Of a stretch of 26,390 bases of DNA, positions 4,804 to 23,709 are shown one piece after another. The first letter of the stretch is position 1. Each line of letters begins with the position of its first letter. The notes under the pieces were generated by a model, which worked only from the letters and a program-made list of their open reading frames with translations, did not search any database and was not told the origin of the DNA. The stretch comes from a virus. Location: IMG/VR virus record IMGVR_UViG_3300049811_000048, positions 1 through 26,390 of that record; one strand, given 5' to 3'. A program made the translations under genes and the position numbers.

Positions 4804-5752
4804 TGTTCTGCGAACGGCGTGCGTTAGATTGTCCGCGCGGACCGCCGCTGCGCACACGCGAACGCTGTGCAAGTGCTTGCGGACCACGCAGCGAGCCTAG
4901 CATAACTTCCTGTGCACGCTGATTGCCCGCACGTGCTGCGTCATTTAGCATTGTAGCAGCATCGTCAGCAGCATTGCCGGTGCTTTGATTATACACTTGT
5001 GGACGCGACCAAGGACGCTTTGCAGCAGTTTGCGCAGCAGGCGCTACTTCTGGTGTAACGCGCATAGCACGTGCTGCCATTCCAGCAGCAGGCGCTCCCA
5101 TTAGCATTGTAGGAAGGCCGAAGAATGCTGGTGATAGCGGATTGTTTGTGCCTTCTGCGCGGGGCATGCGCATCGTTGGGCGCCCGTATGCGTCTAGCTC
5201 TTCTGTTTGCGGATCATAGCCCAATCCGCCTGTTTCATCAGGCCGATAACGCTCAGTAGATACAACAGGCATACGCTGATTTGCGCTGCCGCGGCTGCGA
5301 GGCGCAAACATGTCTGCACGCGGGTCAAGCGCGGGCTCTTCTGGAATGCGGCCAGAAGGAAACTCACCAGCAGCTCGCGTTGGCGCAACAATAACTGCTT
5401 GCGTAGGAAGCGCATCCGCTGGTGTTGCTGCGCTTCCCATTGCACCAGGATTTACACGCATTGCAGGAGCATTGCCAGGATCAGCAGCAAGTTGCGCATC
5501 AACGGCTGCTTCTAGCGGATTAGCCGCAACCGCAGGTGCTTCTGGCGTCGAAGGAGGCGGTGTTGGTAGCTCTGCACGATTACGTGTCTGCATGCTGCGC
5601 TGCGCTGGACGATCTTCCGCGCCTTCTGTGCTTAGCGAAGTCTCACCACGCGCAATAGCAAGCGACGCGCGGTTGAGGTTCGCCGTGTTAACAGGCAGAT
5701 TGTTCGCTTGCAGCAAAGCTCGCGCTTGCTCAAGCATTGCTGATGCGCTCAT
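4796..5752 (-). CDS. Pro/Ala-rich low-complexity protein of unknown function
   Basis: The predicted protein has 318 residues starting MSASAMLEQARALLQANNLP. The ATG at 5752 is one base after the TAA of the upstream gene. An earlier in-frame ATG at 5779 would give nine more residues and a 26-base overlap, so the start is uncertain. Residues 60-200 are dominated by Pro, Ala, Thr and Arg (for example AELPTPPPSTPEAPAVAANP), suggesting disorder. The region near residues 205-235 (SPAFFGLPTMLMGAPAAGMA) is hydrophobic, and the C-terminus is basic and Gln/Arg/Asn-rich. No family is recognised. Position in the late operon suggests a virion, internal or assembly protein; scaffolding or ejection are possibilities only. 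Confidence 0.6.
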   Translation of the reverse strand: MSASAMLEQARALLQANNLPVNTANLNRASLAIARGETSLSTEGAEDRPAQRSMQTRNRAELPTPPPSTPEAPAVAANPLEAAVDAQLAADPGNAPAMRVNPGAMGSAATPADALPTQAVIVAPTRAAGEFPSGRIPEEPALDPRADMFAPRSRGSANQRMPVVSTERYRPDETGGLGYDPQTEELDAYGRPTMRMPRAEGTNNPLSPAFFGLPTMLMGAPAAGMAARAMRVTPEVAPAAQTAAKRPWSRPQVYNQSTGNAADDAATMLNDAARAGNQRAQEVMLGSLRGPQALAQRSRVRSGGPRGQSNARRSQNNE

Positions 5753-20071: not shown

Positions 20072-20659
20072 ATGCCTAAGCTAATCCTACTCAACGGTCC
20101 TCCACGCAGCGGCAAGGATGAATGCGCAAAGCATCTATTCAAGCTACCGCTGACCAAACATCGCGCCGGAATGTTCCCTCATTGGTTCCGCATGTCGCAG
20201 CCTATCAAGGATGCAGTTAAAGTGATGTGGGACATGACGAGTGAAGAAGTCGCGCTGCTAGAGAAGCACAAGGAGAAGGAGCAGAAAGGCTTTGCAGGCA
20301 AGAGTTATCGCCAAGTGCAGATCAGCCTATCCGAAGACTGGATGAAGCAGCAATTCGGCCCACGCATCTTTGGCGAGTTAGCGCTGCGTCGTATCAAGAA
20401 GAGCATCGCAGAAGTATTCGTATGTTCCGACTGCGGCTTTCCAGAAGAAGTCGTCCCGCTGTTTGAGATGTTCAGCAAGGATGACATTCTACTCGTCAAG
20501 CTGCATCGTCCTGGATACACGTTCGCAGGAGATAGCCGCAGCTACATTCGCATTCCTGGCGTGCGTGAAGTGCATGTGCAGAATGACAGCACGCTAGGTC
20601 ATCTAACAATGCAAGTCGAAACTCTCGTGCGAGCATGGGTGAATGGCGAAGCTGAGTGA
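20072..20659 (+). CDS. P-loop nucleotide kinase-like protein
   Basis: The 195-residue protein begins MPKLILLNGPPRSGKDECAK; Walker A is GPPRSGKD (residues 9-16). A Lys/Glu-rich helical segment follows at about 55-75, and later VFVCSDCGFPEEV and ILLVKLHRPG. The layout matches phage deoxynucleoside-monophosphate kinases (T4 gp1-like) as far as can be read. The function would be phosphorylation of dNMPs for the phage DNA polymerase encoded next. AAGGAGTGGTAAT precedes the ATG. The substrate is not determined, and the 3' end overlaps the polymerase gene by 17 bases. Confidence 0.7.
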   Translation: MPKLILLNGPPRSGKDECAKHLFKLPLTKHRAGMFPHWFRMSQPIKDAVKVMWDMTSEEVALLEKHKEKEQKGFAGKSYRQVQISLSEDWMKQQFGPRIFGELALRRIKKSIAEVFVCSDCGFPEEVVPLFEMFSKDDILLVKLHRPGYTFAGDSRSYIRIPGVREVHVQNDSTLGHLTMQVETLVRAWVNGEAE

Positions 20660-22310
20660 CATTAACCGCACACTGCGCGAACGGTGTGCGGCAATGGGCC
20701 TCGAATGGCAATGCCTCGGTGATGGTGATACGAATAGCAAGCTAGTCATCATCAGCGAGGCGCCCGGCCGTCGCGAGTGTGAGATGAAAATCCCACTTGT
20801 CGGCGGCAGTGGGCAATATCTATGGAAAGCGCTAGAACGCTTCGGCATTCGTCGCAGCCAATGCTACGTGACGAACGTTTGCAAGCGCTTTCTACTAGAT
20901 GATGGTGGAGGCATCAGCAAGAATGAGCTATCGCACTGGCGCGCGCTACTCGAATGGGAGTTATCGCAGTTGCCTAATGCGCAGCACTTCTTGCTGCTCG
21001 GCGGTAGTGCTATCGAAACTCTCACTGGACACACAGGCGTCGAGAAGTGGCGCGGCAGTGTATTCAACGTCGAAGGGCGCACGTTTACTTGCAGCTATAA
21101 TCCTGCCAACCTACTGCGAAAGCCAGACCTGGGACCCATCTTTGCACTCGATTGCAGTAAGTGGGACATGTGCATCCGCGGAGTATGGAAAGAGCACGCC
21201 ATTCACGCAATCATCAACCCTTCACCAGCTGATGCAATCGCGTTCTGCGAGAGACTCAGTAGCGAAGGCGCTCCTATCAGTGTGGATATCGAAGTTAAAG
21301 ACAACGAAACCGCCTGCATCGGACTAGCGAACAACGCACACGAAGGCATGTGCATTAACTTCCGTAGTCTCAAAGATAACCGCTTCACTGTGCGTGAAGA
21401 GGCGCAAGTGCGCATCGCTATTCAGCGCGCGCTGCGTCATCCGAAGGCTCGGCTGATTATGCAGAACGGCGCATTCGACTTGTCCTGGCTTTGGTATAAG
21501 GATCGCATTCGATGCAAGGCGCTGTGGATGGATACACTACTTGCACATCATGCGCTGTTCCCCACATGGCCGCACAATCTAGGCTTCCTCACTGCGCAAT
21601 ATACGACGCATCCATTCTACAAAGACGAGAAGACCAGTTGGCAAGAAGGTGGCGACATTGACTCGTTCTGGTCGTATAACGTTAAGGATGCGTGCATCAC
21701 ATGGGAAGTAGCGCGTAAGCTAGAGCTAGAGCTAAAGCAGCGTGGCATGCATAGCTTCTACCATGGGCATGTTATGCAGCTACAACCGTATCTTGTGCAA
21801 AGCACGGTGCTTGGTAACGCAGTTGACTTGGTGATGAAAGCTGCGCTAGAAGAGCAATACGGTGCTGATGTGGAGAAGAAGCGTCTGCGTGTGCAGGAGC
21901 TTGCGCGCATTGCCACTGACGATCCCGCACTAGAGCTAAATCCGAATAGCCCTAAGCAGATGGCAGAAGTGTTGTTCAAGAAGCTGCGCTTGCAAGGCAA
22001 GACAACTAGCACAGACAAAGCTAACCGCGCATTCATGCTTGCTAATCCGCGCACACCGGAACCTGCCCGGCAATTGCTTATCGCGATCAATGAGTATCTC
22101 ACAGAACACAAGCTATACAGCGTATACATCACAGCGAAGGTGGATGAAGATGGGCGCATGAGAAGCGATTACAAGCAATTCGGCACGCAGTTTGTGCCCG
22201 GCCGCCTATCCTCTAGCAGCACGCTATGGGGCAGCGGCGCTAATCTACAAAACCAACCTGAACGGCTGAGAGGCATGTTCATTGCAGATAGGATGACATT
22301 CGATGAGTGA
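20643..22310 (+). CDS. Split DNA polymerase, part 1: UDG-like domain, 3'-5' exonuclease and N-terminal polymerase
   Basis: This 555-residue protein has three regions. First, residues 30-165 resemble a family 4/5 uracil-DNA glycosylase (SEAPGRRE 39-46, PLVGGSG 51-57), with SYNPANLLRKP (151-161) in place of the usual HP-S/A-LLR. Second, residues 205-360 form the proofreading exonuclease: Asp215-x-Glu217, Asn275-x3-Asp279, Tyr345-x3-Asp349. Third, residues 370-555 hold the thumb and first palm motifs of family A: NPNSPKQM (433-440), TSTDKANR and GRLSSS (520-525), then NLQNQPERLRGMF (534-546). It stops at MTFDE, before motif A (DxSQxExR), which is in the gene at 22584. The two products must assemble to be active. 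Confidence 0.85.
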   Translation: MAKLSDINRTLRERCAAMGLEWQCLGDGDTNSKLVIISEAPGRRECEMKIPLVGGSGQYLWKALERFGIRRSQCYVTNVCKRFLLDDGGGISKNELSHWRALLEWELSQLPNAQHFLLLGGSAIETLTGHTGVEKWRGSVFNVEGRTFTCSYNPANLLRKPDLGPIFALDCSKWDMCIRGVWKEHAIHAIINPSPADAIAFCERLSSEGAPISVDIEVKDNETACIGLANNAHEGMCINFRSLKDNRFTVREEAQVRIAIQRALRHPKARLIMQNGAFDLSWLWYKDRIRCKALWMDTLLAHHALFPTWPHNLGFLTAQYTTHPFYKDEKTSWQEGGDIDSFWSYNVKDACITWEVARKLELELKQRGMHSFYHGHVMQLQPYLVQSTVLGNAVDLVMKAALEEQYGADVEKKRLRVQELARIATDDPALELNPNSPKQMAEVLFKKLRLQGKTTSTDKANRAFMLANPRTPEPARQLLIAINEYLTEHKLYSVYITAKVDEDGRMRSDYKQFGTQFVPGRLSSSSTLWGSGANLQNQPERLRGMFIADRMTFDE

Positions 22311-22584
22311 CCGCACCGCATCACGCGCTACTGTGCGTGACGAGCTTGTAGCAAAGCTAGATCGCATCGTTAGTGACACGCCTAGCGCGCCTAATGAAGC
22401 AACGCAAGCATTCGTTGAGCAGATGAATGCGCTGCTTACAGACGCTACGCGCTTCGCAGAAGAGATGCGCACAGCGCTGCGCCTCGGCGTAGGCGTGCCG
22501 CCTGAGCGCATTGATGCCCACATCACAGAAGTGCTAGAGCGTCTTGTGCGCCTAGCAGAAGCTGCGAAGGCGATGCGGCAATAA
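22303..22584 (+). CDS. 93-residue helical protein between the polymerase halves
   Basis: The ATG at 22303 overlaps the end of polymerase part 1 by eight bases, and its stop TAA overlaps the ATG of part 2 by one base. The product, beginning MSDRTASRATVRDELVAKLD, is predicted almost wholly alpha-helical, with many Glu, Arg and Ala residues and only one short loop (LGVGVPPERI). It has no homing-endonuclease, intein or transposase motif. It may be a bridging or stabilising subunit of the split polymerase, or an unrelated gene inserted at the break. The tight overlaps argue for coupled translation of all three. Confidence 0.65.
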   Translation: MSDRTASRATVRDELVAKLDRIVSDTPSAPNEATQAFVEQMNALLTDATRFAEEMRTALRLGVGVPPERIDAHITEVLERLVRLAEAAKAMRQ

Positions 22585-23363
22585 TGCCTGAAGAAAGTCT
22601 TGTCTATGTCTACTTCGACGGTGCGCAGGCAGAAGCTCGTATCGTCGGATGGGAAGCGCGCATTGACAAGTGGAAGGAGCAGTTTGAACGTGCAAGACTT
22701 AACCCAGGATCATACGACGCTCACATTGCGCTTGCAAGCGACATGTTTGGAGTGCGGTATGAAGATGTCCCGAAGCATGACTATGAACCTGACGGTTCCC
22801 TTACACTACGAGCAATCTCTAAGCGCTGCCGACACGGACTTAATTATCGAATGCAAGCCGCGAAGCTTGCCGAGGTCACAAAGCTGTCCTTGGCTAAAGC
22901 TACGGATGCATGGCATGCTTACCATCGAACCACCCCAGAATTGCGAAAGTGGTGGGATGATATCATCGCAGAAGTGCGCCAGCATAGAAAGCTAATCACA
23001 TGCAAAGGGCGCGTGATGCCGTTCTACGGTCATGCGATTGACGAAGAGCTATTCGATAGCATCATCGCATTCAAGCCGCAAAGCACGCTTGGCGATCACG
23101 TGTGTGAAGTGCAGTGGAAGGCGCAAGCTGATGATGACTGGCCTCGCTACGCGCGCATTCCGTATAACAATCACGACAGTCTCACTGCGATGTGCCGTGA
23201 GCGCGACGTTAAGACTATCGCACGAATCATGCGCAAGTATATGGAAGCACCGCTTTACATTCACGGCGAACCGTTAATCATCCCTAGCGACTTCAAAGTC
23301 AGCTATCCAGATGCAGAAGGAGTGCACCGATGGAGCAATCTCAAGAAATTAGTGCTGGATTAA
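22584..23363 (+). CDS. Split DNA polymerase, part 2: fingers and palm with motifs A, B, C
   Basis: The 259-residue product begins MPEESLVYVYFDGAQAEARI. Motif A is FDGAQAEAR (11-19, catalytic Asp12, Glu17). Motif B is RAISKRCRHGLNY (76-88), with Arg76, Lys80 and Tyr88 of the O-helix. Motif C is NNHDS (195-199, His197, Asp198). All the residues needed for metal binding and dNTP selection in family A polymerases are present. The exonuclease, thumb and first palm elements are in part 1. The start is the ATG of TAATG with no strong ribosome site, so it depends on coupling. The protein ends soon after motif C (NLKKLVLD), as in compact phage polymerases. Confidence 0.85.
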   Translation: MPEESLVYVYFDGAQAEARIVGWEARIDKWKEQFERARLNPGSYDAHIALASDMFGVRYEDVPKHDYEPDGSLTLRAISKRCRHGLNYRMQAAKLAEVTKLSLAKATDAWHAYHRTTPELRKWWDDIIAEVRQHRKLITCKGRVMPFYGHAIDEELFDSIIAFKPQSTLGDHVCEVQWKAQADDDWPRYARIPYNNHDSLTAMCRERDVKTIARIMRKYMEAPLYIHGEPLIIPSDFKVSYPDAEGVHRWSNLKKLVLD

Positions 23364-23367
23364 CGCT

Positions 23368-23709
23368 ATGCTGACCCGCCGTCTATTCTCTCTAGCAGCA
23401 CCAGCGTTAATCCTAACGCCTGGCGTTGTGATGCCTGTTAAGCCGTTTTCACGCGAACACATCGTATTCACAGATGAATATCACTATCAGCCTGTAACGC
23501 TGTATCACACCGACACAGGTATTATGGGGCATCTCACGTTTGAAACGTGGTATAGGCGTGTTTATGTTAAGCGCGTTTACAGCGAGGACATGCGGCGCTT
23601 GATCAAGCGCGAAGTGATTAGCGAAGGTCCGACACTTCCGTTCAAGGACCAGTATATCAAAGAGAATTGGCGAATGCACGGTGGTGTGTATGTTCCGCGA
23701 AGCAGCTAA
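23368..23709 (+). CDS. Small protein with signal peptide, possible Tat-type start
   Basis: The 113-residue product begins MLTRRLFSLAAPALILTPGV. The twin arginines in TRRLFSL followed by a hydrophobic segment resemble a Tat signal, although short; the signal would end near residue 25. The mature region is basic and aromatic with no metal-binding or enzyme motif (HIVFTDEYHYQPVTLYHTDT). It lies between polymerase and ATPase genes and overlaps the next by 20 bases. An exported protein in a replication operon is unusual. Weak ribosome site. Identity unknown. Confidence 0.55.
   Translation: MLTRRLFSLAAPALILTPGVVMPVKPFSREHIVFTDEYHYQPVTLYHTDTGIMGHLTFETWYRRVYVKRVYSEDMRRLIKREVISEGPTLPFKDQYIKENWRMHGGVYVPRSS

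Follow-up and report, generated by a model that had tools for sequence, protein, structure and literature searches.

Replicative polymerases made as two chains are known from T4-type phages, where the two gp43 halves of Aeromonas phage 25, gp43A and gp43B, are recovered together on purification and are active as a polymerase (Petrov 2010, as reported in PMC2988022). Among family A DNA polymerases (PolA), the genes of the OM43 (Methylophilales) phages MEP401 and MEP402 (OP830906, OP830907) are split by a small reading frame, ORF14, for which an intron was suggested (PMC10580990). Splitting of an essential replication enzyme is usually taken as damage by a homing element. Here we describe a group of environmental phages whose only known DNA polymerase consists of two proteins, with genes parted at one spot, and in which the split is instead stable throughout the clade. 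The group includes the phage represented by the window, i.e. the whole 26,390-nucleotide stretch of DNA that was analysed. The polymerase of the window shares the order UDG (uracil-DNA glycosylase), exonuclease, PolA with the UDG-fused phage PolA enzymes (PHROG_17; UOF77826, Microcystis phage Mel-JY34), but the latter are encoded by a single continuous gene.

The original prediction, made from the sequence alone, had placed a family A polymerase in two genes at this locus, with a further ORF between them and overlaps of eight and one bases. ORF1, ORF2 and ORF3 are present as described, both overlaps were confirmed, and the features of the locus are as follows.

20643 to 22310, plus strand: ORF1 (pol1), 555 aa; UDG domain, 3′-5′ exonuclease, thumb and first palm part of a family A DNA polymerase
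20718 to 21125, plus strand: uracil-DNA glycosylase-like domain within ORF1, N-terminal (PF03167, E 5.5e-19)
21240 to 21734, plus strand: 3′-5′ exonuclease domain within ORF1 (PF01612, E 1.4e-9)
21891 to 22289, plus strand: N-terminal PolA part within ORF1, as far as FIAD before the break (PF00476 columns 15-148)
22290 to 22293, plus strand: AGGA, Shine-Dalgarno-like as read from the sequence, 9 nt 5′ of the ORF2 start and within the conserved FIADRM codons
22303 to 22310, plus strand: 8-nt overlap of the ORF1 stop and ORF2 start, ATGAGTGA
22303 to 22584, plus strand: ORF2, the cargo gene of the slot, 93 aa; predicted three-helix bundle, no recognised family
22584 to 23363, plus strand: ORF3 (pol2), 259 aa; catalytic palm part and fingers of PolA (PF00476 columns 148-359, E 2.2e-13)
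22614 to 22640, plus strand: motif A, FDGAQAEAR; catalytic Asp D12 equals E. coli D705 (aligned to Klenow via the intact relative L013)
22809 to 22847, plus strand: motif B, RAISKRCRHGLNY; K80/Y88, with His at E. coli position 762
23172 to 23177, plus strand: motif C, HD (residues 197-198), equal to E. coli H881 and D882; invariant in A1 and A2

The Pfam matches of ORF1 (PF03167 at residues 26-161, PF01612 at 200-364 and PF00476 at 417-549) add an N-terminal UDG domain to the earlier description, and type-4 UDG structures match the corresponding part of the relative L013. The locus belongs to family A (PF00476) by its PolA domain with motifs A, B and C, all of which lie in ORF3 together with both catalytic aspartates (motifs A and C) and were aligned to Klenow through L013; the motif A Asp is invariant in A1 and A2. 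The PF00476 profile is shared out between the two proteins without loss of columns (15-148 in ORF1, 148-359 in ORF3), each half scoring above the Pfam cut-off, and PHROG_17 is divided likewise (columns 546-1003 in ORF1, 1009-1235 in ORF3). ORF3 had been said to begin nine residues before FDGAQAEAR; the number is ten (MPEESLVYVY). The nearest relatives are 58-64% identical over pol1 and 71-74% over pol2. ORF2 and ORF3 overlap by 1 nt (TAATG), the AGGA string is identical in L012, L014, L017, L018, L020 and L021, and in split relatives with an RMxFDD-type end a similar stop/start overlap of a few bases lies behind the conserved AGGA.

Within motif B, H84 of ORF3 (22833-22835) stands where E. coli has F762 (KRCRHGLNY vs KAINFGLIY), and this histidine is invariant throughout the family. 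A published polymerase survey retained only Phe, Leu or Tyr at position 762 (PMC9069017) and so would drop polymerases bearing H762.

About 100 relatives were obtained from scans of IMG/VR contigs with pol1, pol2 and the pol2 alignment; a scan of genome contigs with the pol2 alignment gave no relative. Of the 72 distinct sequences placed in a tree, 62 have an intact gene and 10 encode one polymerase in two separate genes, proportions that, like all E-values and counts here, refer to the sequence collections searched and could shift with wider sampling. Eleven distinct split loci were counted after merging near-identical ones: the window, L012, L014, L015/L016, L017, L018, L020, L021, L052/L056, L054 and L055, of which L014 and L021, being incomplete, were not placed in the tree. 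Close relatives have an uninterrupted gene at the very turn where the profile is divided in the window, as the prediction of a split gene would have it. Sequencing error was excluded: several stops lie in the polymerase frame between the halves, so that a point error cannot account for the break, and an assembly artefact is ruled out by the recurrence of the split in ten further distinct loci.

The intact junction reads FIADPKYVYVYFDGAQ or similar. Split pol1 extends a few residues beyond it, ending in RMTFDE, RMMFDD or FIAPKIKIPEGM, each followed by a stop, and split pol2 starts a few residues earlier than the junction, as a rule on its own start codon. Such extra residues at both ends (terminal RMTFDE in pol1, MPEESL in pol2) are without counterpart in intact genes. 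This bears on the suggestion that the inserts are self-splicing introns and that the mature message encodes an intact polymerase, a possibility raised by the authors of the MEP401/402 study (PMC10580990) and in keeping with PolA genes being known intron targets. Besides the added residues and the separate pol2 start codons, no Rfam intron of group I or II was matched in the window at a relaxed threshold or in the 11 split loci at the gathering threshold; the inserts are filled with coding genes that overlap by 1-8 nt, some of them under purifying selection; and the pol1-pol2 gap spans 143-823 nt in the clade of the window and 47-3607 nt in the MEP401 lineage. We therefore regard splicing as very improbable. 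Two other candidates were rejected. A programmed frameshift or bypass does not fit because pol1 and pol2 share one frame in the window but not in L012 and others, with several stops between them. Nor does a split intein, since pol1 runs only 6 residues past FIAD, pol2 begins about 6 before the conserved strand and no intein family was matched. The palm turn itself tolerates insertions, because the intact relative L100 carries an in-frame insertion of ~20 aa at exactly this turn, just upstream of its position 4993.

The break had been judged functional from its retained motifs, and the relatives bear this out. Both halves of the split genes have dN/dS values of 0.03-0.10, compared with 0.05-0.13 for intact genes; purifying selection on both halves is as strong as in intact genes. 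The split halves are the only PolA on the 42-45 kb contigs of relatives, where PolB and PolIII alpha were not found although positive controls were detected; PF00136 (family B) had no match in the window or its relatives. Because the window is a 26-kb fragment, a second polymerase could lie elsewhere in this particular phage. That the gene is interrupted relative to most relatives might suggest a broken polymerase in decay, but this is scarcely credible given the selection on both halves, the retention of all motifs, the occurrence of the split in eleven loci and the lack of another polymerase in the searches above; neither premature stops nor lost catalytic residues were seen in the relatives.

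The intact sister L013, modelled with a 45-sequence alignment (mean pLDDT 92.1), has the PolA fold (Foldseek E down to 1e-28; VIA Z up to 34.7, rmsd 3.7 over 546 residues), a result that concerns the intact relative and not the two-chain form of the window. On this model the break maps to the turn 558-561 between palm strands 556-557 and 562-569, the second of which bears motif A. By analogy with the split gp43 reported for Aeromonas phage 25 (PMC2988022), the two halves most likely assemble into one polymerase, and the two-chain form would be expected to have polymerase activity.

We then consider what lies between the halves. ORF2 is coding by codon log-odds (+0.34 in frame vs -0.27 and -0.31 in the other frames) and resembles the neighbouring genes; by the length criterion alone, an open frame as long as ORF2 is expected in about 2% of Markov shuffles. 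A single-sequence AF2 model gives a three-helix bundle (mean pLDDT 82.5) without a fold match in the PDB. Comparison with Pfam, PHROG and PADLOC yielded no confident family, only a weak PADLOC match (E 0.014), and the protein (P0002) has no relative in the viral contigs searched, the contigs of ten relatives or any compared locus. The original prediction noted that the insert lacks endonuclease motifs, and indeed no endonuclease family occurs in the slot of the window or the scanned relatives, nor in that of any split locus of the clade; the locus thus departs from genes of the mobE/nrdA kind, in which the homing endonuclease gene lies within the split.

The content of the slot differs wholesale among relatives: the window has the 93-aa protein, L015/L016 a protein of 48 aa with four cysteines, L018 proteins of 71 and 80 aa, and L020 proteins of 111, 71 and 98 aa; other loci have others. 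BLASTP separates at least 11 unrelated cargo families, some shared in new combinations. Replacement is bounded exactly by the pol1 stop and the pol2 start. Thus, L054 and L055 are 99.0% identical through the pol1 stop and collinear again from the pol2 start, with unrelated genes between, and the slot is their only break over 8.8 kb. None of the cargo families was found outside slots among the compared loci, and a dedicated scan for one of them returned slot copies only. A number of cargo genes fall into PHROG families that lack an assigned function and are also present in other phages, as expected for ordinary accessory genes, and those of relatives have dN/dS values of 0.04-0.33 (the 93-aa ORF2 of the window being without a relative). 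Because small variable genes also follow pol2 in this clade, there are no fewer than two points of exchange, of which the slot is one; what sets the slot apart is its location inside the polymerase.

In the MEP401 lineage, every relative in which both halves were found is split, and most inserts belong to a single family (about 70-92 aa). In MW202697 a 68-aa protein stands in its place; MW202796 has an expanded insert of eight ORFs, one of them a cytosine methyltransferase; and in Alcaligenes phage QDWS535 the slot is empty and the halves overlap by one base. In MW202697 (L128:2485-2530) the start of pol2 is apparently frameshifted in an A-run within motif A, by sequencing error or programmed frameshift. 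The dominance of one insert family here, together with the tight coupling of the genes of the two halves, could be taken to mean that ORF2 is a dedicated third subunit bridging or regulating them, and the conserved MEP401 insert would fit a third subunit there too. However, near-identical polymerases carry unrelated cargo (L054, L055, L056), QDWS535 has split halves with no cargo at all, and P0002 lacks relatives in every collection named above. A third subunit thus seems quite improbable for the window. Going beyond the original prediction, ORF2 is exchangeable cargo rather than a fixed third component.

We consider it highly probable that the replicative PolA of these phages is made as two assembling polypeptides and that the gap between their genes is a slot for exchanged, unrelated small genes. 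According to this model, the PolA gene would have been interrupted within the palm, in the turn that joins the short strand FI(A) to the strand bearing motif A, leaving ORF1 to supply the UDG, exonuclease, thumb and first palm part, and ORF3 the catalytic palm core and fingers. One transcript would yield both chains via overlapping start and stop codons, the gene overlaps suggesting translational coupling, and the chains would join into one working polymerase without splicing or covalent linkage. The gap between the half-genes would then accept complete small genes, such as the 93-aa helical ORF2, and these passengers, which need bear no relation to the polymerase, would be swapped among related phages; the simplest route would be homologous recombination within the conserved polymerase sequence on either side.

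How the split arose is a separate matter. In one split subclade of five loci an HNH gene of 85-89 aa (PF01844, E about 3e-11) lies directly 3′ of pol2, although in L016 one small ORF intervenes; this gene was beyond the scope of the original prediction and adjoins pol2 in several relatives, not in the window.

L012, 6803 to 7060: HNH gene after pol2
L016, 8798 to 9067: HNH gene after pol2
L017, 9074 to 9343: HNH gene after pol2
L018, 7960 to 8220: HNH gene after pol2
L020, 5563 to 5820: HNH gene after pol2

In the window a 113-aa ORF (23368-23709) takes this place, lying after pol2 and before the DUF3987 gene; its N terminus (MLTRRLFSLAAPALIL) resembles a signal sequence and the protein belongs to no known family. 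HNH or other genes stand here in relatives. No HNH gene follows pol2 in the intact relatives examined. A free-standing HNH gene next to pol2 might have created and spread the split, with the slot as its scar and the small genes as later arrivals or replacements. Such genes are linked to the splits of T4-type phages (PMC2988022), and in the intact sister L013 DUF3987 follows the polymerase with no gene in between; on the other hand, the slots of the clade are free of endonucleases, and the window and L054-L056 lack an HNH gene after pol2 though all are split. We hold this origin tentatively, as somewhat less than an even prospect. It concerns origin and is compatible with the two-chain model, and mobilisation of the junction by the HNH gene is conceivable. 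The intact L013 falls within the split clade, beside the window. An AU test rejects monophyly of the split genes for the concatenate (p 0.023) and for pol1 (p 0.015), though not for pol2 (p 0.29), and over the 3′ end of pol1 the DNA of the window is 78-85% identical to the L012 group vs 72% to L013. Given these three results, it is possible that L013 re-fused, that the window gained a split junction by local recombination, or that the split arose repeatedly.

The split recurs at the same palm turn in a further PolA lineage, a point that the original prediction did not cover, and it marks a site of gene exchange. More speculatively, and on balance doubtfully, unrelated PolA lineages may have repeatedly broken their polymerase at one permissive palm turn and maintained the break as a protected docking site. 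Deletion would not easily remove genes held between two essential half-genes, and the conserved sequences on both sides would act as homology arms for exchanging accessory genes, perhaps for counter-defence. The turn is a naturally occurring position at which to divide PolA into a two-part enzyme, and the slot is a place to seek new small accessory phage genes. Annotation that relies on a full-length polymerase miscounts phages with a split PolA.

Division of the gene is also seen at another position in a distant relative, Caulobacter phage Kuura (L004:2289-5693), in which the UDG/exonuclease part and the polymerase part are in different genes with two small ORFs between.

Compared with the described systems, the locus resembles the T4-type gp43A/gp43B of Aeromonas phages 25 and 44RR in having a replicative polymerase in two chains and sequence inserted between the genes. 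The gp43 proteins reportedly work together. Unlike the polymerase of the window, gp43 is a family B enzyme, with a seg endonuclease or untranslated sequence, not exchangeable small genes, between the halves. MEP401 and MEP402 share with the window the position of the break, in the palm turn immediately preceding motif A (LFLSRYGE and stop / MILNADAKALEW), a first gene containing the exonuclease and N-terminal part, a small ORF of unknown function between and tight spacing. They differ in belonging to another PolA lineage without a UDG domain (the halves of the window have no BLAST match in MEP401) and in an insert that is mostly one conserved family, and their authors described no exchange of cargo. 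Vibrio phage vB_VspS_VS-ABTNL-3 (MF497422; PVS_29/28/27) likewise has a UDG-type PolA, about 25% identical, that is divided close to motif A and has an unrelated ORF of 184 aa in the gap; here, however, the break lies ~20 residues earlier, after NLQNLPKG, and the cargo family was matched in 423 phage records. Low similarity between the polymerases, rather than a joint tree, suggests that the splits of MEP401, VS-ABTNL-3 and the window are independent.
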